In this document: positions 18,513 to 29,967 of the stretch, one piece after another
How positions within the stretch are numbered: the first letter of the stretch is position 1
Layout of the letters: every line of letters begins with the position of its first letter
Assembly (NCBI GenBank): GCA_015057705.1
Contig: SVDU01000009.1
Location: forward strand, 62,001 to 126,000
Length of the DNA: 64,000 bases
Reading direction: 5' to 3'
Origin: Paenibacillaceae bacterium
GTDB taxonomy: Bacteria > Bacillota > Clostridia > Lachnospirales > Lachnospiraceae
The notes under the pieces: model-generated
What the model was told of the DNA's origin: nothing
Database searches by the model: none
Seen by the model: only the letters and a program-made list of their open reading frames with translations
Position numbers and translations under genes: made by a program

Positions 18513-20054
18513 TTGAATCAAAAACTAAAGGAAAAAATTATTGAATCCCTTTCATCTGTACTGCCCGTTACATGCATTGTGCTGATTTTGTGTATAACCA
18601 TTACACCTATGCCGCTTGATCCGCTGATGCTGTTTCTGGTAGGTGCAACCTTACTCATTGTGGGAATGGGATTTTTTACACTTGGTGTAGACATGTCCAT
18701 GATGATCATCGGGGAAAAAGTTGGAAACCATCTGGTAAAATCAAAAAAATTACCTATTATTATTTTTGCCTGCTTCATCATTGGTTTTATCATTACCATT
18801 GCTGAACCAGATCTTCAGGTTCTGGCTGGTCAGACCCCTGCAGTGCCTGATATGGTGCTGATTCTTTCAGTGGCAGCCGGTGTGGGAATCTTCCTCGCCC
18901 TTGCCTTTTTAAGAACTCTGCTTGGTTGGAATTTATCAAAGCTTCTTCTGATCTTCTATGGAGTACTCTTTGTTACCGCAATTTTTGTTCCAAAAGATTT
19001 TCTGGCTGTGGCTTTTGACTCCGGAGGTGTAACAACCGGACCCATTACCGTTCCATTCATTATGGCTCTCGGCGTAGGTCTTTCCTCTGTTGGAAGAAGT
19101 AAAAATTCAGGCAGCGACAGCTTTGGTCTTGTGGCCCTCTGCTCTGTAGGACCGATTCTCTCAGTCATGATTCTAGGGTTACTCTATGGCTCCTCTTCCA
19201 GCAGCTATGAACCCACGGTAATTCCTGCCTTCACCAATTCACAGGATCTGTGGCTGGCCTTTCAGCATGAATTTCCGGTTTATGCAAAGGAAGTTTTTCT
19301 GGCTTTGTTTCCTATTCTTTTATTTTTTGTGATTTTCCAGATATTTTTCTTAAAACTAAGACAAAGACAGATCATTAAAATACTGATGGGAATACTGTAC
19401 TCTTACATTGGACTCACACTATTTTTAACCGGTGTCAATGTTGGATTTATGCCTGCCGGCAATTATATTGGGAAACAGCTGGCATCTCTTTCCTATAACT
19501 GGATTATGATTCCCATTGCCATGCTCATCGGTTATTATATTGTAAAAGCAGAGCCTGCTGTTTTAGTATTAAATAAACAGGTGGAGGATATAACTGGAGG
19601 TGCCATCTCAGAAAAAACCATGATGGCAGGATTATCGGTAGGTATGTCAGTTTCTCTGGGATTATCTGTCATAAGGATTTTATCGGGTCTCCCCCTTCTT
19701 GCACTTTTAATTCCCGGATATGCGCTGGCACTGGGTCTATCCTTTGTTGTACCTCCCATCTTTACATCAATCGCATTTGACTCCGGCGGTGTGGCTTCCG
19801 GTCCCATGACTGCAACTTTCCTGCTTCCGTTTGCCATGGGCGCATGTGAAGCAGTGGGCGGTAACATTGTGACCGATGCCTTTGGAATTGTTGCCATGGT
19901 GGCTATGACACCCTTAATCACCATTCAGCTGATCGGTGTGATTTACCATTTTAAAACGAAGAAATCCAGTTCTTTTGCAGGGGTTGCCTCAATTGATATG
20001 GAACTGGAATTTATTGAATTAGGAAAGGATGAAGCAGATGACTTCCAATCATAA
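18513..20054 (+). CDS. DUF1538 integral membrane protein
   Basis: 513 aa from a TTG start seven bases after GGAGG. Two homologous halves are visible: each has a VAFDSGGV-TGP motif (about residues 168-177 and 423-432) followed by an S/GD-FG segment, in an otherwise highly hydrophobic protein of about 12 segments. This internal duplication with paired DSGG motifs is the mark of the DUF1538 family, whose transport role is not established. Its gene overlaps the following PII-like gene by 17 nt, and an antiporter precedes it, so ion or solute transport controlled by the PII-like partner is inferred. Confidence 0.75.
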   Translation: MNQKLKEKIIESLSSVLPVTCIVLILCITITPMPLDPLMLFLVGATLLIVGMGFFTLGVDMSMMIIGEKVGNHLVKSKKLPIIIFACFIIGFIITIAEPDLQVLAGQTPAVPDMVLILSVAAGVGIFLALAFLRTLLGWNLSKLLLIFYGVLFVTAIFVPKDFLAVAFDSGGVTTGPITVPFIMALGVGLSSVGRSKNSGSDSFGLVALCSVGPILSVMILGLLYGSSSSSYEPTVIPAFTNSQDLWLAFQHEFPVYAKEVFLALFPILLFFVIFQIFFLKLRQRQIIKILMGILYSYIGLTLFLTGVNVGFMPAGNYIGKQLASLSYNWIMIPIAMLIGYYIVKAEPAVLVLNKQVEDITGGAISEKTMMAGLSVGMSVSLGLSVIRILSGLPLLALLIPGYALALGLSFVVPPIFTSIAFDSGGVASGPMTATFLLPFAMGACEAVGGNIVTDAFGIVAMVAMTPLITIQLIGVIYHFKTKKSSSFAGVASIDMELEFIELGKDEADDFQS

Positions 20055-20748
20055 AGTTTACTGGATTACGGTTATTGTAGACCGTGGAAAAGGCGAAAAA
20101 GCTGCTTCCGTTTTCAAAGAATACAATCAGGAACTGCTGCTTAATGTCCGTGGTCATGGAACAGCCAGTTCAGCAATTAAAGATTGCCTTGGGCTTGATG
20201 AGCCGGAAAAGGACCTGGTAATCGGAGTGGTTGATCAGTCAGCCTCCCAAAGCCTGATATCCACACTTCATAAAAAACTGGAGCTGAATAAACCTGGATA
20301 CGGTATCGTATTCACAATTTCTCTGTCAGGAATCAGTGCCGCGGCTTCAAACCTTCTAAACTCCGGCATTGCAGGCAATGAGAACCATTTATCTACAGAT
20401 TATCACAAGGAGGATCATCCCATGTCAGATACAAACGCGTATGAATTAATTGCATCCGTCATAAATACAGACCTTTCAAACCCGATTATGGAATCCGCAC
20501 GAAATGCAGGCTGTAAAGGCGGCACACTAATAAAAGCAAGAGAACTGGGCGGAGATTCTACCAGTAAACTGTTTGGGATGACCGTCTCAAATGAAAAAGA
20601 AATTCTTCTGATGCTGGTGCCGAAATCAGATAAACAGGCAATATTAAAATCCATTTGTGAAACCGTATTAAAAGAAACAGGTGAACATGCCATTGCATTC
20701 TCTATTCCAGTGAATGATGTGGCTGGTTTAAGCACACTTATGAAATAA
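20038..20748 (+). CDS. Tandem PII-like regulatory protein
   Basis: 236 aa from ATG 20038, eight bases after AAAGGA; ATG 20029 abuts the ribosome site. Two domains appear to repeat: residues 1-105 (VYWITVIVDRGKGEKAAS, HGTASSAIKDCLG, LVIGVVDQ) and residues about 130-236 (YELIASVINTDLSNP, AGCKGGTLIKARE, EILLMLVPKSDK). Both follow the beta-alpha-beta order of PII/GlnB-like proteins with a glycine-rich turn after strand 2. A KP(G)YG segment near residue 90 in domain 1 resembles the PII C-terminus. Coupled by overlap to DUF1538, it probably senses a metabolite or nucleotide and gates that transporter; the ligand is unknown. Confidence 0.65.
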   Translation: MTSNHKVYWITVIVDRGKGEKAASVFKEYNQELLLNVRGHGTASSAIKDCLGLDEPEKDLVIGVVDQSASQSLISTLHKKLELNKPGYGIVFTISLSGISAAASNLLNSGIAGNENHLSTDYHKEDHPMSDTNAYELIASVINTDLSNPIMESARNAGCKGGTLIKARELGGDSTSKLFGMTVSNEKEILLMLVPKSDKQAILKSICETVLKETGEHAIAFSIPVNDVAGLSTLMK

Positions 20749-20763
20749 TCAGCCTCTGCTTTC

Positions 20764-20792
20764 TTGACACTGTGGCTCTAAACTCTTATAAT
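20764..20792 (+). promoter_or_regulatory. blaI-blaR1 promoter
   Basis: -35 TTGACA (20764-20769) and -10 TATAAT (20787-20792), both perfect consensus, 17 bp apart. Such a strong promoter fits an operon held off by a repressor. Confidence 0.8.
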
Positions 20793-20800
20793 ATATGTAT

Positions 20801-20810
20801 TACAGTTGTA
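20801..20810 (+). promoter_or_regulatory. BlaI/MecI-type operator
   Basis: TACAGTTGTA: the TACA-NN-TGTA core known for BlaI/MecI operators, eight bases downstream of the -10 and over the transcript start. Confidence 0.75.
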
Positions 20811-20827
20811 AGAACAGGAGAATGAGT

Positions 20828-21211
20828 ATGAGCCACCTTCCGCAAATTTCTGAAGCAGAATATGAAGTGATGAAGGTACTTTGGAGGTATGCTCCAATTA
20901 ACACCAACGAGGTAACTGAAAAACTAATCCAGACAACCGACTGGAATCCCAAGACGATTCACACCCTGTTAAAGAGACTGGTTCAAAAGGGGGCTGCTAC
21001 CTACACCAAGGAAAGCCGTGTATTTATTTATACTCCTCTTATTAATGAGGACGACTATCTGAAGAAGGAAAACAGCCACTTTTTAAACCGGTTCTATAAC
21101 GGCAGCATATCCGGTATGGTAACAAGCTACATGAACAGCAATCATATATCCAACGAGGACTTAAACGAGCTGAAAAAGCTTCTTTTTAAGGAACATGAGG
21201 AGGAAACATAA
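20828..21211 (+). CDS. blaI: BlaI/MecI-family transcriptional repressor
   Basis: 127 aa from ATG 20828, seven bases after GGAG. Winged-helix repressor: ISEAEYEVMKVLWRYAPINTNEVTEKL and TDWNPKTIHTLLKRLVQKG are the canonical helices and wing of the family; the C-terminal half mediates dimerisation and carries the cleavage region in characterised members. Represses its own promoter and the target resistance genes until BlaR1 signals. The blaR1 gene follows after 1 bp. Confidence 0.9.
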   Translation: MSHLPQISEAEYEVMKVLWRYAPINTNEVTEKLIQTTDWNPKTIHTLLKRLVQKGAATYTKESRVFIYTPLINEDDYLKKENSHFLNRFYNGSISGMVTSYMNSNHISNEDLNELKKLLFKEHEEET

Positions 21212-21212
21212 T

Positions 21213-22991
21213 ATGCTTCTTTCCCTTATGATCCGTCTAATGTTAAACAGCGTTGTGATAATTCTGTCATACGGAATAATCCTGCTGATAAAAGAACGAT
21301 TTAAAAATCATCTTACATGGAAAGCCCAATACAGAATCTGGTATTACCTGTTACTTGTACTGATCTTTCCTTTTCTCCCCTCCTCCATGATTCATGCAGG
21401 GTTTCGTTTATTAAGCCTTTCTGGAGGCAGTGTCTCACCTGTCAACGTAACCACTCCCACTTTTCCCAACGATGCTGGTATTTCCAGCTTTATACAAGAT
21501 TTCTCCATATCCGTCAGCCGCAGCCGTATCTTTCATCTCCCTGCTTTTCTGCCTTATATATGGGGACTGGGAATTAGTATTGTGTCAATCCTTAATCTTA
21601 TTTCCGACATTAAAATCAGACGAATCAGACAGGCCAGCCTTCCTCTCCAAAACAGGCAGATCAGAGAATTGTTTGACTGCTGCCTGAGTGAAATGAATAT
21701 AAAAAAGAAAATTTCCCTTTACAGCAGCGCATATTTAAGTTCTCCCATGGCTGCCGGTTTAGTAAAACCGATAATTATACTTCCCATCCATATACTTTCA
21801 GAATTTACAAAAGAAGAGATTCGCTTTATTCTCCTTCACGAACTGACCCATATTAAGCACAGAGACCTTTTTCTTAACCGTTTCCTGGCTCTTATGCAGG
21901 CACTGTACTGGTATCATCCAGTCGTCTGGATTGGGCTAAGAGAGATGAGGAAGGACCAGGAAGTTGGTTGTGATCTGTCCGTTTTATCCATATTAGAAGA
22001 AAACAGCTATGTGGATTATGGAAAAACCCTGATTCGTTTTGCAGAAAATATAGTAAGACGGCTTTCTTTTGTTTCCCAGATCGCAGGCTCTGAAAAAGAG
22101 ATCAGGATGAGAATCCGCTGCATTGCTTCTTACCGCAAAGAATCCACATGGAAACAATGGAAAAGCCGGTTTTTACTCACTGTAACCAGTCTGGTGCTGC
22201 TGGCTTTTATACCTGTCATGTCGATCAATGCAGCCAGTGGTTCTTATTACCCTTTTTATCCTGAACATATGAAACAGCTGGATTTAGACTCCTGTTTTTA
22301 CGGTTATGAAGGTAGTTTTGTACTTTACGGAGTCAATTCCCATCAATATTATATTTATAATCAGAAAGCAGGCACAACCAGGATCTCCCCAGACTCCACC
22401 TACAAGATATACAGCGCTCTGTGTGCACTGGAACAGGGGGTGATTACTCCTGACTCCTCTTATATGAAATGGGACGGATCAGCCTTCCCATTTGAAGCCT
22501 GGAATCAGGATCAGAACCTGAATACTGCCATGAGCCGTTCTGTTAACTGGTATTTTAAAACTTTGGATGAAAAAAGCGGTATATCCGCATTAAAAAGCTG
22601 CATTGGGCGACTGGAATATGGAAATCAGGATTTATCTGGAGGAATCGGCAGCTACTGGCTGGAGTCTTCCTTGAAAATCTCTCCTGTGGAACAGGTGGTG
22701 CTCTTAAGCAGGCTTTGTCAGGGAACTCTCCCGTTTCAACCGGATCATATTAAAGCGGTAAAAGATTCCCTTTATATTTCTGCCAGCCAGGGTGTTTCAT
22801 TATACGGAAAAACAGGTACCGGCAATATAAACGGCAAAGATGTCAACGGCTGGTTTATCGGTTTTGTGCAGTCTAAGGATGATACTTATGTGTTCTCCAC
22901 CAACATTCAAAGTGACCATTCCGCCAACGGACGCACTGCCGCAGCGATTACACTGGACATTTTAGAGAATCAGAATATCTACAGACAGTAA
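21213..22991 (+). CDS. blaR1: BlaR1/MecR1-type beta-lactam sensor-transducer
   Basis: 592 aa from ATG 21213, nine bases after GAGGAGG. N-terminal membrane region with an M56 zinc-protease domain: HELTHIKHRD (HExxH) near residue 208 and the downstream EVGCD glutamate. A further membrane segment near residue 325 leads to an extracellular sensor of class-D beta-lactamase type: acylated Ser in STYK near residue 394, SVN near 443, and KTGTG near 531. In the known pathway, acylation by a beta-lactam triggers cytoplasmic proteolysis and loss of BlaI repression. All catalytic signatures are intact. Confidence 0.93.
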   Translation: MLLSLMIRLMLNSVVIILSYGIILLIKERFKNHLTWKAQYRIWYYLLLVLIFPFLPSSMIHAGFRLLSLSGGSVSPVNVTTPTFPNDAGISSFIQDFSISVSRSRIFHLPAFLPYIWGLGISIVSILNLISDIKIRRIRQASLPLQNRQIRELFDCCLSEMNIKKKISLYSSAYLSSPMAAGLVKPIIILPIHILSEFTKEEIRFILLHELTHIKHRDLFLNRFLALMQALYWYHPVVWIGLREMRKDQEVGCDLSVLSILEENSYVDYGKTLIRFAENIVRRLSFVSQIAGSEKEIRMRIRCIASYRKESTWKQWKSRFLLTVTSLVLLAFIPVMSINAASGSYYPFYPEHMKQLDLDSCFYGYEGSFVLYGVNSHQYYIYNQKAGTTRISPDSTYKIYSALCALEQGVITPDSSYMKWDGSAFPFEAWNQDQNLNTAMSRSVNWYFKTLDEKSGISALKSCIGRLEYGNQDLSGGIGSYWLESSLKISPVEQVVLLSRLCQGTLPFQPDHIKAVKDSLYISASQGVSLYGKTGTGNINGKDVNGWFIGFVQSKDDTYVFSTNIQSDHSANGRTAAAITLDILENQNIYRQ

Positions 22992-22994
22992 AAG

Positions 22995-23040
22995 AGAGCC
23001 TGAGACAGGAGAATCTCTCCAGCCTCAGGCTCTGTCATTT
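22995..23040. terminator. Bidirectional terminator between convergent blaR1 and the PBP gene
   Basis: AGAGCCTGAG (22995-23004) pairs with CTCAGGCTCT (23024-23033), with an inner GGAGA/TCTCC; T-rich on the plus side (TCATTTTCATTT), A-containing on the other. Confidence 0.7.
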
Positions 23041-23044
23041 TCAT

Positions 23045-25168
23045 TTATTGTACCGGAATATAGGAATCAAGAATCAGTTTATCTTTTCTTACCACATACC
23101 CGCTCCCGCCCCGGTTCTTCACATCTTCTACCATACTGACAAGAAGCAGTGGTGCCTTTGTATCAGGATCTGCAGTAAATACCGAAAACCATCCAAGCTC
23201 CGTTCCGGTGGTATCCCCTTTGGAAGCTTTGATCTCAGCAGTTCCTGTCTTTCCTCCAAGGGTCAGGTCAGATCTCATAATGGCATGACCGGTTCCATGC
23301 TCTGAGCTGACAACCTTGATCAGATCCTCACGGACCAGATTGGCATTGTCTGGAGAGCAGGCTCCCTGAAGCCATACTTTTGGTGCAGCATTTTGTTCTG
23401 CTCTTAGAACAGGCTGTATGACATTGCCCTCGTTGGTAAACATGGTGTAAAGAGCTGCCAGATGGATCGGATTCACAAGCATCTGTCCCTGTCCATAACC
23501 GCTGTCAGCCAGCTGTACTTCCGTTTCGATCTTATCTGAATTAGAGTACTGGGACTGGGCAACGGAAATTTCAAAAGGAAGGGCCTGGTTAAATCCCAGT
23601 TTGTTAAGCCCTGCCATAAAATCATCATAGCCAATCTTTAATGCAGCTTTGGCAAAATAAATATTGTTCGAGTAGATAAAAGCATTCTCCAGATTAAGGG
23701 GATTACTGTCATGAAGGGTGGTTATGTAATAATTTCCCCAACTCTCATCTTTTCTCCAGCTTAATCCGGTGCTTCCAAAATCCTCATTGGGATCAATGGC
23801 CCCAGTTCCAAGTCCAACCACAGCTGTAATGGGCTTAAATGAAGAGCCTGGAGCGAACTTCTGACGGAAGCGGTTATAAAGAGGCTTTCGCTCATCATTA
23901 TTTAAGGAATCCCATTTTTCTGACGGCATTCCCAGAATGAAATCATTGTCATCATAGGAAGGGGTGCTCACAAGAGCCAGGATCTCTCCTGTATGGGGAT
24001 TCATGGCTACGCTGCAGCTTTTGTCTTCCGAAAATGCATCATAGATCGCACTCTGAAGCGTACTGTCAATGGTAAGTGAGATATCTGCACCATCTGTTCT
24101 TGGCCTTACTGCCAGCTTTTTCTTGCTGTTTCCCGTTGCATCTGTGATGGAAATAGTATGGCCGTTTGTTCCCTTTAATCCCTTTTCATATAATCCTTCC
24201 ATACCGCTTTTTCCAATTACGCTGTCTGTTAAATAATCTTCTCCCTTATGTTTTTCCAAGTCCTCACTGGTCACATTCTGAACGTATCCAATGAGATGGG
24301 CGCCCTTTACCCCCAGGGGATAGGAACGCACGGAAGTGTCTGTAATTAACACTCCGGGAATTGTAAGAAGCTGATCCTGAAGCTCTTTGTTTTTCTGATC
24401 TTCTTCACTGACCTGATCTGAGTGGAGCTGAAAATCATCTACCTTTTTCAAGGTTTTTAAGGGAACAAAGGAATCTTCCTTTACCCAGCCTGCAGAAAGC
24501 TTTTTTTGTATACTCTCAGGAGACATGGATAGAAGTTCTCCCAGTTTTTCCACATCCGGGCCGGAATTCTCACTCATTTTTCCCGGAACAAGACCCACAG
24601 AGGAGGCAGTTCCCTTTCCTGCCAGCATAAGACCGTTCCTGTCAAAAATAGACCCTCTTTGCGCCTGATCTGTTGAAACTCTGACTTTATCGTTTTTGTT
24701 AAGCTCTGGAAAAATCATACTGTCATTCCATTCCAGTTTATAGCCGGTTTTCTTTTCTTTTTTAAATACTGCCTGATTGGAAAAACTGATCTCTCCTGCC
24801 AGACTGGTTAAACTCATCTGATAAGTGACTACTGCTTCCTCATCTTTTAAGTCAACGCCGGTTATATCCGCTTTTATATTCTCCGCTTCAATTCCTTCAT
24901 AAATTTTCTTATTTCTGGCAATAAAATCTTCCTGGCTGATATTTAACTGGCTCTGCCCATCAAGCATGCCATACATGGATTCATAATCCGCTTTTTGTAA
25001 GTTTGACACATAGTCAGAAAAAAGCACATCCGGCTTTTTTGACTGGTTTTTCTTACTTTCAAGCCGGAGAAATAAAATTCCTCCGGCCAGACCAATCATC
25101 AGTATTAATAACGTGCAAACAGCAGAAAACACAAATCGTCTCAATCCCCGTTTCGTTCCCCGTCTCAT
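23045..25168 (-). CDS. MecA-like class B penicillin-binding protein
   Basis: 707 aa. One N-terminal membrane anchor (about residues 10-32), then a MecA_N/NTF2-like domain (about 45-150: FSDYVSNLQKADYESMY), then the PBP dimerisation domain starting at QRGSIFDRNG, then a transpeptidase with SSFK near residue 441, SNN near 499 and KTGTA near 639. This domain order is that of PBP2a/MecA and PBP3-type enterococcal proteins of low beta-lactam affinity. It follows the very long PBP2 gene by 12 bp and shares its operator-controlled promoter, so it is probably a beta-lactam-inducible bypass transpeptidase; affinity itself cannot be read from sequence. Confidence 0.85.
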   Translation of the reverse strand: MRRGTKRGLRRFVFSAVCTLLILMIGLAGGILFLRLESKKNQSKKPDVLFSDYVSNLQKADYESMYGMLDGQSQLNISQEDFIARNKKIYEGIEAENIKADITGVDLKDEEAVVTYQMSLTSLAGEISFSNQAVFKKEKKTGYKLEWNDSMIFPELNKNDKVRVSTDQAQRGSIFDRNGLMLAGKGTASSVGLVPGKMSENSGPDVEKLGELLSMSPESIQKKLSAGWVKEDSFVPLKTLKKVDDFQLHSDQVSEEDQKNKELQDQLLTIPGVLITDTSVRSYPLGVKGAHLIGYVQNVTSEDLEKHKGEDYLTDSVIGKSGMEGLYEKGLKGTNGHTISITDATGNSKKKLAVRPRTDGADISLTIDSTLQSAIYDAFSEDKSCSVAMNPHTGEILALVSTPSYDDNDFILGMPSEKWDSLNNDERKPLYNRFRQKFAPGSSFKPITAVVGLGTGAIDPNEDFGSTGLSWRKDESWGNYYITTLHDSNPLNLENAFIYSNNIYFAKAALKIGYDDFMAGLNKLGFNQALPFEISVAQSQYSNSDKIETEVQLADSGYGQGQMLVNPIHLAALYTMFTNEGNVIQPVLRAEQNAAPKVWLQGACSPDNANLVREDLIKVVSSEHGTGHAIMRSDLTLGGKTGTAEIKASKGDTTGTELGWFSVFTADPDTKAPLLLVSMVEDVKNRGGSGYVVRKDKLILDSYIPVQ

Positions 25169-25180
25169 TCCATTTCTCCT

Positions 25181-28039
25181 TTAATCCGTACGAAGGTTAT
25201 TGGATACACCAGAAGCGGTACCAGTTAAAATCTTTTCGGTATCTTCCAGTTGGAAATAATAATTAAATATATTTTTTCCTACACCTACCACATTACCGGA
25301 GCTGTATCCGTTTGCAATCCTGACCGTTATGGCAATCTGCGGATTGACAAGGGGTGCATATCCAATAAAGAGACCATGGTTTGGTTTGGTTTTTGATTCC
25401 TCTGCCGTACCGGTTTTTCCTGCTGCATCAATTTTTAAATCTTTCAAGTTTGCATTGGATTTTACCAGTTCGTTCATACCTTTTGCCACATCATTCCATA
25501 CAAATTCCGGTAAGTTTACTGTACTGTTTAAGGCAGGAGTGAAGGATTTTACCACTGTGCCGTCTCCATCTGTAATCTTGCCAATCATAGACAACTGATA
25601 ACTTTGACCATGGTTCGCCAGCGTAGCTGTATAACGGGCTATCTGGGATGTGGTGTAGTTATGAGTTCCCTGACCGATGGAGGATGGAATGGCATACTGA
25701 TCTGTTACATGAGGTTTTGCCTCTCCGATCTCAATTCCTGTGTTCTTATCCAGATCCAGAAGCTGGGCATATTTAACTAAGGTCCCAAGCCCCTTATCCT
25801 CTGAAAAGCTTCCATCTGTTCCTGTACCCAGCCTGTAAGTGATTTCTGACAGATATACGTTACAGGAGTTTTTAAGTGCATCGGCACTGGAAGAGATCAC
25901 ACCGTGGCCGGAACGTTTCCAGCATCGCAGAGGCGGCTCTACCTTGTCAAATGCACCAGTACACAAAACACTGGTATCCGTCTGAATCACACCTTCCGTT
26001 AACCCGGCAATGACCGTAACCGGTTTAAAGGTAGATCCGGGTGCCGTTAACTGGCTGGTGGCACGGTTGAACAGAGGCAGAGATAAATCCTGTTCCAGCT
26101 GCTGGTAATAAGAGGTATCCATCTGGTTCGCCAGCCGGTTATTGTCATAACCCGGATAGCTGACACAGGCTATTACCTCACCGTTCTGGGGATTGACCAC
26201 AACAGCGGATCCGGAACAGGGATTTAACGCCAGCTGAGCTGGTGTAATCTCCAGATTGGTGATTTTCTTACGGATAAACTGATAGGGACTTAACTGACCA
26301 TTCATAAGAAGAGGGTAGTCCGGATCATCTTTTGACAGAACTCCCTGTTCATACAGAAGCTGCTCTGTCTCCCTGCCGCTAAGGGATCCTTCCCCAATCA
26401 TCGCCTGATAAATCTTCTGTTCAAAATCACGGTTTTCGGTGATATCCTGTAACATCTTTTCTTCCGCAAGGCGCTCTGCATCCTGGATCTCCGTATACTT
26501 TTCATTGTTTTCCAGGCGGCTTAAATCCATATGACCTGCAGCAATGGATTCGGTCAGATATTGCCTTAAGCTCTTTTCTTTCCAGTCCCATGTGCCGCTT
26601 CCATTTAGCAGGAACTGATCTTTACGGGCCTGGCTAACCAGAAAATCTAAGTATCCCTGCATCTGGGGACCAAGTGCCTGGTAAGTGGCACCTGATGCGT
26701 CGAAGGCGGCTGAAAGCTGACCAATCACCGCTTCTTTTTTCTGTTTGAAATCTCCGTAAACCTTTTTTTCCAGATCCGAGGCATTCTCACCCTTTAACCG
26801 CTCCGTATCGATGACGTGATTCTGTATCAACGCATAGTAGACTTCGTCAGAGGCAATCCGGATCTGGGAAGCATCGGCTGCTTTTGGCATTTCTGCCCTT
26901 CTGGTTTCCACCATATTGGCCAGAAGAATTCCGGCTATCTGCTGTTTCAGCATCTGATATACCGCATCCTGCAGGCCTTTATCCACCGTTAAATAAACAT
27001 CCTTGCCCGTTCCGGGGCTGTTGGTAATAACTGGTTCCGTCTTTGGATTTCCCACAACGTCGGTATAAAATTCCTGAGTTCCATCCTGTCCTCTCAGCCA
27101 TTCTTCCATGGATTTTTCAATTCCGCTTTTACCAATCACGGACTGATTAGAATAAATACCGTTATTATCCCCAACAGCAGCCAGCTCATCGGCTGATATG
27201 CCACCTGTATATCCTAAAATAGAGGACATGCTTTCTCCGCCATAGTACACCCGGATGCTGCTGTTTTCCACATCAGCTCCCTGTAGATCGTGCTTTTGCT
27301 CCATCACACCCACCATGGCTTTGTCAGATACATCGGAGGCAACCAGATACGGCAGGTATTTCCGGTATGAATTTAAGGACAGTCCATAACGAATGTTGGC
27401 AATCTGTAAGATCTCTTTGGGCGTTAAGGACGCAGGAAGCCTGTACAATTTCTGCTCCTCTTCCGTATAAGAAGAATCAATCATAAACTTCTTCTTTCCG
27501 CAAAGATCCTGCATCAGTTCATCGGCGGTCTTTTGTGACTGCTCTTCTGTCAGATCCGTAACCTGGCTCTTTCCATAAAAGTCAGCCTTAAAGCGGCTCA
27601 GCTTCCAGCCGTCCACCGAATATTGATAATTTCCTTCTTGGTTTACCATAATGGGAAGGCTGACATTTAACTTATCCTCATCTCCTACAAGACCAATCAG
27701 CTGATAGGCGATTCCGTTTAATGTTTTCTGTTTCTCCTTCTGATTCTTATAATTTCCCGAATCTTCCAAAGTGATGTTATAGGAAAGACGGTTTGATGCC
27801 AAAAGCGTTCCGTTCCTGTCATAGATGTTCCCTCTGTTCCCGGGAAGCCTCTGGGTTTTCATAATGGAGGAGATGAATTCCTCCTGGCTGGCAGCCCCCT
27901 CCATGATCTGCAGATGGTATAGCCTTACCAGCAGTGATGATAATAAAAATCCAAAAAATAATCCCAATATCAGCAATCTGGGAATCTGAAATGTAATATC
28001 AGGTAAGCTTTTATTCTTAAATAGATGATTGCGGCGCAT
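25181..28039 (-). CDS. Very long penicillin-binding protein 2 (class B transpeptidase)
   Basis: 952 aa from ATG 28039, behind AAGGAG; 48 further upstream codons run through the promoter region and are unlikely. One membrane segment (about 18-40), dimerisation domain opening with NRGNIYDRNGTLLASNR, and a transpeptidase with STFK near residue 670, SCN near 724 and KTGTA near 875. Between the dimerisation and catalytic domains lies an insertion of about 200 residues (roughly 395-600), mainly charged helix, which explains the size; PBP2 proteins close to 1000 residues are known in clostridia. Elongation-type peptidoglycan cross-linking is the likely role. Confidence 0.85.
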   Translation of the reverse strand: MRRNHLFKNKSLPDITFQIPRLLILGLFFGFLLSSLLVRLYHLQIMEGAASQEEFISSIMKTQRLPGNRGNIYDRNGTLLASNRLSYNITLEDSGNYKNQKEKQKTLNGIAYQLIGLVGDEDKLNVSLPIMVNQEGNYQYSVDGWKLSRFKADFYGKSQVTDLTEEQSQKTADELMQDLCGKKKFMIDSSYTEEEQKLYRLPASLTPKEILQIANIRYGLSLNSYRKYLPYLVASDVSDKAMVGVMEQKHDLQGADVENSSIRVYYGGESMSSILGYTGGISADELAAVGDNNGIYSNQSVIGKSGIEKSMEEWLRGQDGTQEFYTDVVGNPKTEPVITNSPGTGKDVYLTVDKGLQDAVYQMLKQQIAGILLANMVETRRAEMPKAADASQIRIASDEVYYALIQNHVIDTERLKGENASDLEKKVYGDFKQKKEAVIGQLSAAFDASGATYQALGPQMQGYLDFLVSQARKDQFLLNGSGTWDWKEKSLRQYLTESIAAGHMDLSRLENNEKYTEIQDAERLAEEKMLQDITENRDFEQKIYQAMIGEGSLSGRETEQLLYEQGVLSKDDPDYPLLMNGQLSPYQFIRKKITNLEITPAQLALNPCSGSAVVVNPQNGEVIACVSYPGYDNNRLANQMDTSYYQQLEQDLSLPLFNRATSQLTAPGSTFKPVTVIAGLTEGVIQTDTSVLCTGAFDKVEPPLRCWKRSGHGVISSSADALKNSCNVYLSEITYRLGTGTDGSFSEDKGLGTLVKYAQLLDLDKNTGIEIGEAKPHVTDQYAIPSSIGQGTHNYTTSQIARYTATLANHGQSYQLSMIGKITDGDGTVVKSFTPALNSTVNLPEFVWNDVAKGMNELVKSNANLKDLKIDAAGKTGTAEESKTKPNHGLFIGYAPLVNPQIAITVRIANGYSSGNVVGVGKNIFNYYFQLEDTEKILTGTASGVSNNLRTD

Positions 28040-28106
28040 AATTCTCCTTATTCTTACGCTTGTAATATTTATAATATGAAAGGAACAGGGACACTTTATA
28101 CCCTCC

Positions 28107-28116
28107 CTGTATACAG
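28107..28116. repeat. 10-bp palindrome downstream of the PBP-operon operator
   Basis: CTGTATACAG, perfectly palindromic, contains the BlaI half-sites TGTA and TACA in inverted order. Possibly a secondary site. Confidence 0.35.
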
Positions 28117-28125
28117 ATAAATTAC

Positions 28126-28135
28126 TACGTATGTA
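28126..28135 (-). promoter_or_regulatory. BlaI-type operator of the PBP operon
   Basis: On the minus strand TACATACGTA, one base off the TACA-NN-TGTA core, seven bases after the -10, the same geometry as in front of blaI. Confidence 0.6.
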
Positions 28136-28142
28136 AGATTTG

Positions 28143-28171
28143 ATTATACACCGGATCGATTCAGATGTAAA
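28143..28171 (-). promoter_or_regulatory. Promoter of the PBP2 / MecA-like operon
   Basis: Minus-strand -35 TTTACA (28171-28166) and -10 TATAAT (28148-28143), spacing 17 bp. It lies immediately downstream of the ABC exporter gene. Confidence 0.65.
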
Positions 28172-28179
28172 CCGTTTTT

Positions 28180-29967
28180 TCACCGCAATGCCATCTGAAG
28201 CCGCTCCATTTCATAGAATTCTCCTTTTAACTCCATTAACGACTGGTAGCTTCCTTCTTCCCTTATTTTCCCCTGGTCTAAAACCACGATCCGGTCTGCT
28301 CCTCTTACTGTGGAAAGCCTGTGTGCAACAATAAATGTCGTTCTTCCTTTAATCAGCTCATTGAGGGCATCCTGAATCTCCTTTTCTGATATGGTATCAA
28401 GAGCTGAGGTCGCTTCATCCAGTATAATTACCCGGGGATCTCTGATAATCGCCCTGGCTATGGAAATTCTCTGTCTCTGACCTCCGCTTAAATTGGCTCC
28501 ATGTTCTCCTATCATGGTATTAAGGCCATTGGGCAGCTTCGCAATTACTGTTTTTAGATTTGCAGCTTCCACTGCATGATTCACCTCTTCGTCAGATACA
28601 TTGGTAAGGCCATAAGTGATATTTTCCCTTACCGTACCTGTAAAGAGAATAGGGGTCTGTGGTACCACTGAGATAAATCTCCGGTAGCTTCTTAAATTAA
28701 TTTCACTGATATCCGTTCCATCAATGGAAAGCCTGCCGCCGCCTGGTGTTATAAAACCGATTATCAGATTTAGTATGGTGGTCTTTCCAGAACCGGACTC
28801 TCCCACCAAAGCAATGGTCTCCCCTTCCTTCACCTCCAGATCAATTCCGGACAAAACCGGTTCATTGGAGTCTTTGTAGGAAAATGTAACATTCTGAAAG
28901 GTAAATCTGCCCTTTAACTGGTTTAGTTCCCTTTTTCCCTCATTATGCTCCACATCATCGGAAATTAATACCTCGCCGATGGAAGAAACGGATTCCAATC
29001 CCTTGGTCAGTATGGGAAGCAGATTAATCAGCCCGGTAAACTGGTTGACTACCGTAGTAAAGCTTGCCTGATAAAAGGTTACATCGCCGATCTTTATAGA
29101 GCCTTTCCATGCCATATACCCGGAGAACCCCAGACACAGTGCCTGAAATACCTGAAATACACACCAGCTCACAGCCCCGAAATGTGCCTGCACCATATCC
29201 AGCCGGTATCCCTTGTCTGCCGTTTCTTCCAGCTGTTCTTTGATCTTATCCACCTCTTGTTTTTCAAGGGCATGGGCTCTTGTAACAGGAACCAGTTCCA
29301 CCATCTCCATCACACGGGCACTGGTTTCCTCCATCTCACGTCGAAACGCCCGGTTCTCACTGTGTATCCGTTTGCGAAATGCAACAACTGTCACAGCGGT
29401 CACTGGAGCCACCAAAAGAAAGAACAGGAGCACTGATCTGTTTTTTACGGCTGTAATTCCAAGAGTGATCACAAGATTCATCAGAATATTCATGAGATTA
29501 ACAAAAAGCTGGGAGGATAATGTCTCCACTGCCTCCACGTCACGTATGATCTTGGACTGAAGTCTGCCTGATTGTATCTGCGTGTGGTATGGAATGGACA
29601 ATTCCTGGAGTTTGCGGACCAGTGCGCCTCTTAAACCAGCCTCAGTTTTTCGTATAACCTGATTTTTGTACTTGTTGTGAAGCCAGTTTGCAGGAAGATG
29701 CACTGCTAAAAGTCCAATCCAGACTGTAACATTTAAGATGATCTGACGCTTTCCCTCTTCTCCTCCTGCAATGGCTCCGTTAATTACATTGGCAGTCAGA
29801 AGGGCAGCAAAGAGACTGGGCGCATGTTTGATTACAAAAAAGAAAGTGGACAGAAGAAACTTATGGTACTGCCCTTTATAAAATCCAAGCAGCACCATAA
29901 CCGAATGATTCCTGTACTTCCTATAGCAGTCAATAAACCGGTGTTCCATTTTCTCATATTGATCCAT
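28180..29967 (-). CDS. ABC exporter, fused membrane and ATPase domains
   Basis: 595 aa from ATG 29967, six bases after GGGAG. The N-terminal half has six membrane segments of the ABC type-1 exporter fold; the C-terminal half has Walker A GESGSGKTT near residue 395, signature LSGGQRQR, Walker B VIILDEATSALD and the switch His in VAHRLSTV. It should work as a homodimer or with a partner. Substrate is unknown. The start is 10 bp after the esterase stop, so it is the last gene of the glycosidase operon; it also directly precedes the PBP promoter. Confidence 0.85.
   Translation of the reverse strand: MDQYEKMEHRFIDCYRKYRNHSVMVLLGFYKGQYHKFLLSTFFFVIKHAPSLFAALLTANVINGAIAGGEEGKRQIILNVTVWIGLLAVHLPANWLHNKYKNQVIRKTEAGLRGALVRKLQELSIPYHTQIQSGRLQSKIIRDVEAVETLSSQLFVNLMNILMNLVITLGITAVKNRSVLLFFLLVAPVTAVTVVAFRKRIHSENRAFRREMEETSARVMEMVELVPVTRAHALEKQEVDKIKEQLEETADKGYRLDMVQAHFGAVSWCVFQVFQALCLGFSGYMAWKGSIKIGDVTFYQASFTTVVNQFTGLINLLPILTKGLESVSSIGEVLISDDVEHNEGKRELNQLKGRFTFQNVTFSYKDSNEPVLSGIDLEVKEGETIALVGESGSGKTTILNLIIGFITPGGGRLSIDGTDISEINLRSYRRFISVVPQTPILFTGTVRENITYGLTNVSDEEVNHAVEAANLKTVIAKLPNGLNTMIGEHGANLSGGQRQRISIARAIIRDPRVIILDEATSALDTISEKEIQDALNELIKGRTTFIVAHRLSTVRGADRIVVLDQGKIREEGSYQSLMELKGEFYEMERLQMALR

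Follow-up and report, generated by a model that had tools for sequence, protein, structure and literature searches.

The locus described here, in a window of 64,000 nucleotides (the whole stretch of DNA that was analysed), raises the question of whether a non-staphylococcal anaerobe carries a beta-lactam switch of the staphylococcal kind that is wired to penicillin-binding proteins (PBPs), and what such a switch would do for the cell. The first-pass annotation had placed a BlaI repressor, a BlaR1 sensor, a MecA-like PBP and a 952-aa PBP2 side by side, and this was borne out by profile matches, all four genes being intact. The host draft genome has 4.53 Mb in 36 contigs and is 98% complete, and the organism was taken as Lacrimispora, an anaerobe of gut type, because the 707-aa PBP is 96 to 98% identical to its counterparts in Lacrimispora xylanisolvens, L. 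defluvii and MAGs that bear the label Paenibacillaceae or Hungatella. The features of the locus are the following:

20764..20792, plus strand: blaIR promoter, TTGACA-17-TATAAT (12/12 consensus matches; present in related loci)
20801..20810, plus strand: predicted blaI operator TACAGTTGTA, 8 nt past the -10 (flank pattern and cross-species conservation)
20828..21211, plus strand: blaI, repressor, 127 aa (PF03965, 113.6 bits; 98 bits to the penicillinase repressor 1p6r)
21213..22991, plus strand: blaR1, sensor/metalloprotease, 592 aa, class-D-type sensor domain (NF000326, 672.8 bits; 8exs match; motifs)
22988..23048, no strand assigned: hairpin between the convergent operons, terminator-like on both strands (MFE -25.8 and -30.0 kcal/mol; z -4.8 and -6.3)
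23045..25168, minus strand: MecA_N-type class B PBP, 707 aa, SSFK / SNN / KTG (domain and model searches, PDB matches)
25181..28039, minus strand: PBP2 (MrdA-type) paralogue, 952 aa, STFK / SCN / KTG (PBP_dimer and Transpeptidase domains; comparison with the core PBP2)
28055..28064, minus strand: predicted proximal PBP operator TACAAGCGTA, adjoining the ribosome-binding site (conservation, flank pattern)
28126..28135, minus strand: predicted distal PBP operator TACATACGTA, 7 nt past the -10, about the expected transcription start (conservation, flank pattern, OP1 likeness)
28143..28171, minus strand: promoter of the PBP operon, TTTACA-17-TATAAT (11/12 consensus matches; related loci)

The score of BlaI under Penicillinase_R (PF03965) compares with a cut-off of 22.6 bits. 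The NCBIfam exception models for BlaI/MecI, which name particular known proteins, gave scores below their cut-offs (119.6 of 180 for BlaI_of_BCL and 62 to 80 of 250 for the staphylococcal models), and the best PDB match was 1p6r, whose source species we take to be Bacillus licheniformis. BlaR1 exceeds the cut-off of 400 bits of the NF000326 equivalog, matches the solved BlaR1 8exs over residues 8-588 and carries HELTH (209-213), QEVGCD (249-254), STYK (395-398), SVN (443-445) and KTG (533-535), as well as YGN. Among 32 rows of orthologues, STYK or STFK was present in all 32, SVN in 30 and KTG in 29, the other three rows ending earlier. The claim that all motifs of BlaR1 are intact thus holds for HELTH, STYK, SVN, YGN and KTG, with a reservation at the cleavage sites. 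The scissile place of the window BlaI reads S-Y, with Tyr at P1', and the autocleavage P1' of BlaR1 aligns to Ala, next to Ile, in RRLSFVSQIAGS (read off the alignment), in a loop that is variable among orthologues. According to an excerpt of PMC9834060, Phe is near-invariant at the BlaI P1', staphylococcal BlaI being cut at N-F, and the BlaR1 autocleavage site has a bulky hydrophobic P1'. In relatives (34 rows, three of them duplicated) the BlaI place is N-Y or S-Y in many rows and S-F or S-L in others, and the Tyr, which is usual in the clade, may be a tuned variant.

The 707-aa PBP showed the domains MecA_N (PF05223, 72.1 bits), PBP_dimer (PF03717, 115.7 bits) and Transpeptidase (PF00905, 194.8 bits). 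Its score was 418.9 bits under the PBP2a model NF000237 in comparison to a cut-off of 750, the best NCBIfam score being 589.3 bits under the enterococcal PBP4(5) model NF051842 (cut-off 700). The PDB matches, which span about residues 51-697, were headed by PBP3 (7bn9, 448 bits), followed by PBP4 (394 bits), PBP5 (372 to 386 bits) and PBP2a (up to 371 bits). The protein carries KTG; PBP2a has KSG in its place. By domain plan and matches, it belongs to the MecA_N group of class B PBPs, which holds PBP2a, PBP4/5 and PBP3, and this wording should replace 'MecA-like'. For the 952-aa protein, the ATG at 28039 behind AAGGAG was chosen as the start, in agreement with the first-pass annotation, the longest frame having a GTG start and 1000 aa. 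The core PBP2 of the host (962 aa), with what we take to be MreC- and MreD-like genes before it and MinC- and MinD-like genes after it, lies on a separate contig and is 36% identical to the 952-aa paralogue, which is closer to paralogues in other genera (43 to 55%). This comparison sets the 952-aa protein, a paralogue of the PBP2 (MrdA) type, apart from the housekeeping PBP2.

The genes blaI and blaR1 belong to a single operon, BlaI ending at 21211 and the ATG of BlaR1 lying at 21213, and in the PBP operon, which is transcribed towards blaIR, the 952-aa paralogue ends 12 nt ahead of the MecA_N PBP. The hairpin between the operons is absent from the list of the terminator scan, the rule of which demands a different loop and tail. 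Directly upstream of blaI, 18513-20748 encodes a DUF1538 (UmpAB-like) protein and a P-II-like protein, and the P-II-like gene adjoins blaI in 10 of 15 Lacrimispora-type loci (L038-L051, L069).

Operators 8 nt past the -10 of blaI and 7 nt past that of the PBP operon, both promoters having 17-nt spacing, had been claimed earlier and were found as described, while the proximal operator at 28055-28064 on the minus strand, between the PBP promoter and the ATG, had been overlooked. The two PBP operators, TACAAGCGTA and TACATACGTA, are 71 nt apart. A BlaI dimer on the blaI operator or on the distal PBP operator would block RNA polymerase. The blaIR and PBP promoters were the best two of 13 promoter-like sites scanned in 20600-28400, a total that is no excess over shuffles (15.8). 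The window's double PBP operator may be the outcome of operator duplication, because in the related loci L045 and L046 the promoter, a single operator and the ribosome-binding site are contiguous. The PBP -35 lies 8 nt beyond the end of an ABC gene, and the terminator scan listed no terminator-like site between the two, so that read-through could give BlaI-independent expression of the PBP operon.

A genome scan for TACA-NN-TGTA sites, as had been suggested in the first-pass annotation, was unrewarding for the bare motif and selective once flanks were added. The bare 10-mer TACANNTGTA had 78 genome matches in comparison to 69 for the reversed control and is not enriched; with at most one mismatch it was found 33 times in the window in comparison to 20.7 expected, a count that 3 of 100 shuffles reached. 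TATAAT followed after 3-14 nt by TACANNYGTA occurred at 7 genome places in comparison to 1 for the control, two of the seven being the promoters described here. The flanked pattern TTACANNYGTARKAWY occurred at 5 genome places in comparison to 2, three of them being these operators and the remaining two falling within ORFs, and the flanked pattern WWRTMTTACANNYGTA occurred at 3 places in 4.53 Mb in comparison to 0, all three at the locus. Both flanked patterns were derived from the three sites of the locus itself, and their evidence is therefore limited to scarcity, that is, to few or no further sites; against the own genome, neither gave a further site outside ORFs. By the flank patterns used, the regulon in the host genome would comprise two promoters. 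The same genome encodes two class A beta-lactamase-like proteins (L142 and L143, 277 and 281 aa), for which a signal peptide was not discerned and the exact operator was not found.

We regard conservation across species as the main proof for the predicted operators. The flanked operator recurs at equivalent places in other Lacrimispora, Hungatella, Anaerocolumna and Blautia. The comparison covered the window and 42 related loci, with 42 rows of usable upstream DNA; L078, whose PBP gene is truncated where the contig begins, was omitted from this count, and for L068 the DNA upstream of PBPmec was taken in place of that upstream of PBP952 (partial gene, wrong offset). Gene starts in the related loci were tblastn estimates, and the 300-base upstream windows are possibly shifted; the null for the operator score was first-order resampling, not an exact shuffle. 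Upstream of the PBP, the extended operator scored at least 23 in 29 of the 30 loci, window included, that have a BlaI of this kind in the locus or genome, and at most 21 in all 12 loci without one (Fisher p 1.2e-9, with a cut-off of 23 chosen after the scores were seen and with rows that are not independent, 16 of the 30 BlaI-bearing rows being the window and its near kin L038-L051 and L069). The exception is L055, where blaIR lies elsewhere in the genome and the PBP is without an operator; in L066 the regulator is absent, yet the best score of 21 exceeds all 300 resamples. L046 and L057 have the operator and no blaIR within 10 kb; elsewhere in their genomes, a full BlaR1 (719 and 457 bits) is encoded, as is BlaI.

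The gene order took three forms: convergent in the window, Hungatella and Anaerocolumna; PBP-blaI-blaR1 on one strand in the Blautia-type loci L061, L062, L064, L067 and L078; and divergent in L068 and L074. Operators also lie ahead of blaI unless the PBP gene comes first on the same strand, as in L061, L062 and L064, where blaI is without its own operator. At L050:13156-13597 and L069:7494-7951, BlaI and the operators are retained and BlaR1 is missing from the locus, in sequence without N, and no full BlaR1 match was found in these two genomes (L069 being a MAG).

We consider it probable that the locus is a beta-lactam-inducible BlaI/BlaR1 regulon with added transpeptidases in Lacrimispora. 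By analogy with known systems, BlaI dimers would sit, when the drug is absent, on the one operator of the blaIR promoter and on the two that follow the PBP promoter, and both operons would be low; a beta-lactam would then acylate the class-D-type sensor domain of BlaR1, the zinc protease domain of BlaR1 would remove BlaI, blaIR and the convergent PBP operon would rise together, and a second PBP2-type transpeptidase and one of the PBP2a/PBP4-5/PBP3 type would join the housekeeping set. The proposal of an inducible target bypass in a non-staphylococcal anaerobe has two halves. Its wiring, a two-PBP operon under predicted control of BlaI, is well supported, the comparison of loci speaking strongly for the link of BlaR1/BlaI and operator; the bypass itself, in which the two PBPs would have low beta-lactam affinity and replace inhibited PBPs, is uncertain.

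The same regulon might alternatively hold PBPs of ordinary affinity, with induction adding transpeptidase for dose compensation, tolerance or wall repair and giving little or no clinical resistance. This seems to us somewhat improbable, and it overlaps the explanation that we prefer, denying the bypass step alone. Strains of L. sanguinis, L. celerecrescens and L. sphenoides, for which carriage of the locus is not established, are susceptible to penicillin, ampicillin, piperacillin-tazobactam and carbapenems according to an excerpt of PMC12578346, and a different L. celerecrescens strain (152B, L046) has an operator-linked PBP pair; breakpoint susceptibility is, however, compatible with a raised MIC. 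The retention of STFK/SCN/KTG by the PBP2 paralogue also fits compensation, as do two other genomes in which the operator-linked target is a PBP2 paralogue without a MecA_N PBP. The MecA_N PBP of the window points in the other direction, as it resembles PBP4, PBP5 and PBP2a over nearly its whole length, and these have low beta-lactam affinity. A Blautia with blaI/blaR1 is reported in PMC8146736 not to be ampicillin-resistant, and with the susceptible Lacrimispora relatives this ampicillin-susceptible Blautia speaks for modest tolerance or compensation.

It is very improbable that the PBP operon is a housekeeping one, with operators that arose by chance or belong to another BlaI/CopY-type repressor. 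Such a view could draw on the 78 occurrences of the 10-mer in the genome, on an excerpt of PMC7253601 by which the 10-mer alone is insufficient for CopY binding, and on two further BlaI-like proteins of the genome (36% and 30% identical), but no such site lies within about 1.5 kb of the genes of these two, the window BlaI is without the C-terminal CxC, and all three operators have T where the CopY consensus, as excerpted, wants a purine. Moreover, both the place and the flanks of the operator are conserved across genera, the operator co-varies with the regulator, and the housekeeping PBP2 is located elsewhere.

The inducible regulon that we favour shares with the staphylococcal mec system (mecA-mecR1-mecI) and bla divergon a BlaR1/MecR1-type sensor, a BlaI/MecI-type repressor, TACA/TGTA operators and a MecA_N PBP as target. 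It differs from them in its convergent operons, mecA and mecR1-mecI being divergent, in the PBP2 paralogue that heads the target operon, in a PBP that scores below the PBP2a cut-off, and in a neighbourhood that is common to close Lacrimispora genomes. The low-affinity class B PBPs PBP4 and PBP5 of enterococci have the same domain plan as the 707-aa PBP, which differs in falling under their model cut-off of 700 and in lying under predicted operators of the BlaI type; to our knowledge, PBP4 and PBP5 are not BlaI-controlled. In the blaP-blaI-blaR1 system of Bacillus licheniformis the target is a beta-lactamase and three operators lie in one divergent region, whereas here the targets are PBPs and the three operators are spread over two promoters; the distal operator shares AAATCTTACATAYGTA with the OP1 oligo given in an excerpt of PMC3305447, to which the distal, blaI and proximal sites are identical at 21/28, 16/28 and 17/28 positions. 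The BlaI_0696 and BlaI_1845 regulons of Clostridium thermocellum, as far as an excerpt of PMC8457756 describes them, are likewise small, autoregulated, clostridial and equipped with paired binding sites, with the motif GTCTAT/GACTAT in place of TACA/TGTA and with hypothetical or peptidoglycan genes as targets.

A survey of 150 genomes of the family, one per genus, with the PBP sought at E <=1e-100 and BlaR1 at E <=1e-60, showed the PBP in 27 genomes, BlaR1 in 25 and both in 16 (odds ratio 18, p 9e-9), the two lying within 12 kb of each other in 9 of these 16. The 25 BlaR1 genomes include five (G018, G068, G102, G121 and G153) with pieces or stop-bearing copies only. BlaR1 was absent at the cut-off used from 11 of the 27 PBP genomes, so the PBP also exists unregulated. 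One stretch was inspected in each of the nine genomes with BlaR1 and without a MecA_N PBP: in G020 and G149 the operators stand ahead of a PBP2 paralogue, in G116 and G033 ahead of a CDD-like class D enzyme (below the cut-off of that model in both), and in G074 and G141 ahead of DUF6070 genes. In the inspected stretch of G048, G130 and G018 they were found only ahead of blaI, though in G130 and G018 DUF6070 adjoins BlaR1 or a fragment of BlaR1.

The DUF6070 family (PF19546) was found in 22 of the 150 genomes, 17 of which have BlaR1 in comparison to 8 of the other 128 (p 2e-12), and lies within 12 kb of BlaR1 in 9 genomes. The operator search covered 1500 bases upstream at 30 of 35 match places; in 12 of the 22 genomes it placed sites scoring at least 23 no more than about 500 bases ahead of a DUF6070 gene, a count for which no null was run. 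The operator-bearing genes include one far from blaIR (G063) and three on other contigs (G032, G150 and G158), and G160 has DUF6070 with an upstream site in a genome without BlaR1 at the cut-off. DUF6070 genes follow the MecA_N PBP gene at L066:11560-12792, L068:12025-14474 and L074:12109-13317; the window's own genome had no DUF6070 match. Further DUF6070 genes were noted in L164, L166, L167, L168, L170, L172, L175, L176, L179, L182, L184, L185 and L189, and several of the DUF6070 genes have a lipoprotein-like start. A protein of about 500 aa with weak BNR/sortilin-like matches follows DUF6070 genes at L151:6241-7743 and L154:2968-4479, and a relative of it is present in L068.

From their upstream sites, DUF6070 genes look like candidate further members of the BlaI regulon in other Lachnospiraceae. 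With a little less than even confidence, we suggest that BlaI/BlaR1 of the Lachnospiraceae may be a modular response to beta-lactams or wall damage that draws on a common pool of effectors (MecA_N PBP, PBP2 paralogue, CDD-like class D enzyme and DUF6070), in which DUF6070 would be a new kind of beta-lactam-response effector and some members would run BlaI in the absence of BlaR1, with a wall fragment as a possible gate, as an excerpt of PMC3305447 proposes for B. licheniformis. The regulon link offers a testable function for DUF6070. In general, a switch of the staphylococcal kind with PBPs as its targets turns up in several anaerobic genera from the gut and the environment, which bears on the origin of the pairings of MecA_N PBP and BlaIR; in these anaerobes it may be a reason for tolerance or for beta-lactam MICs that vary.
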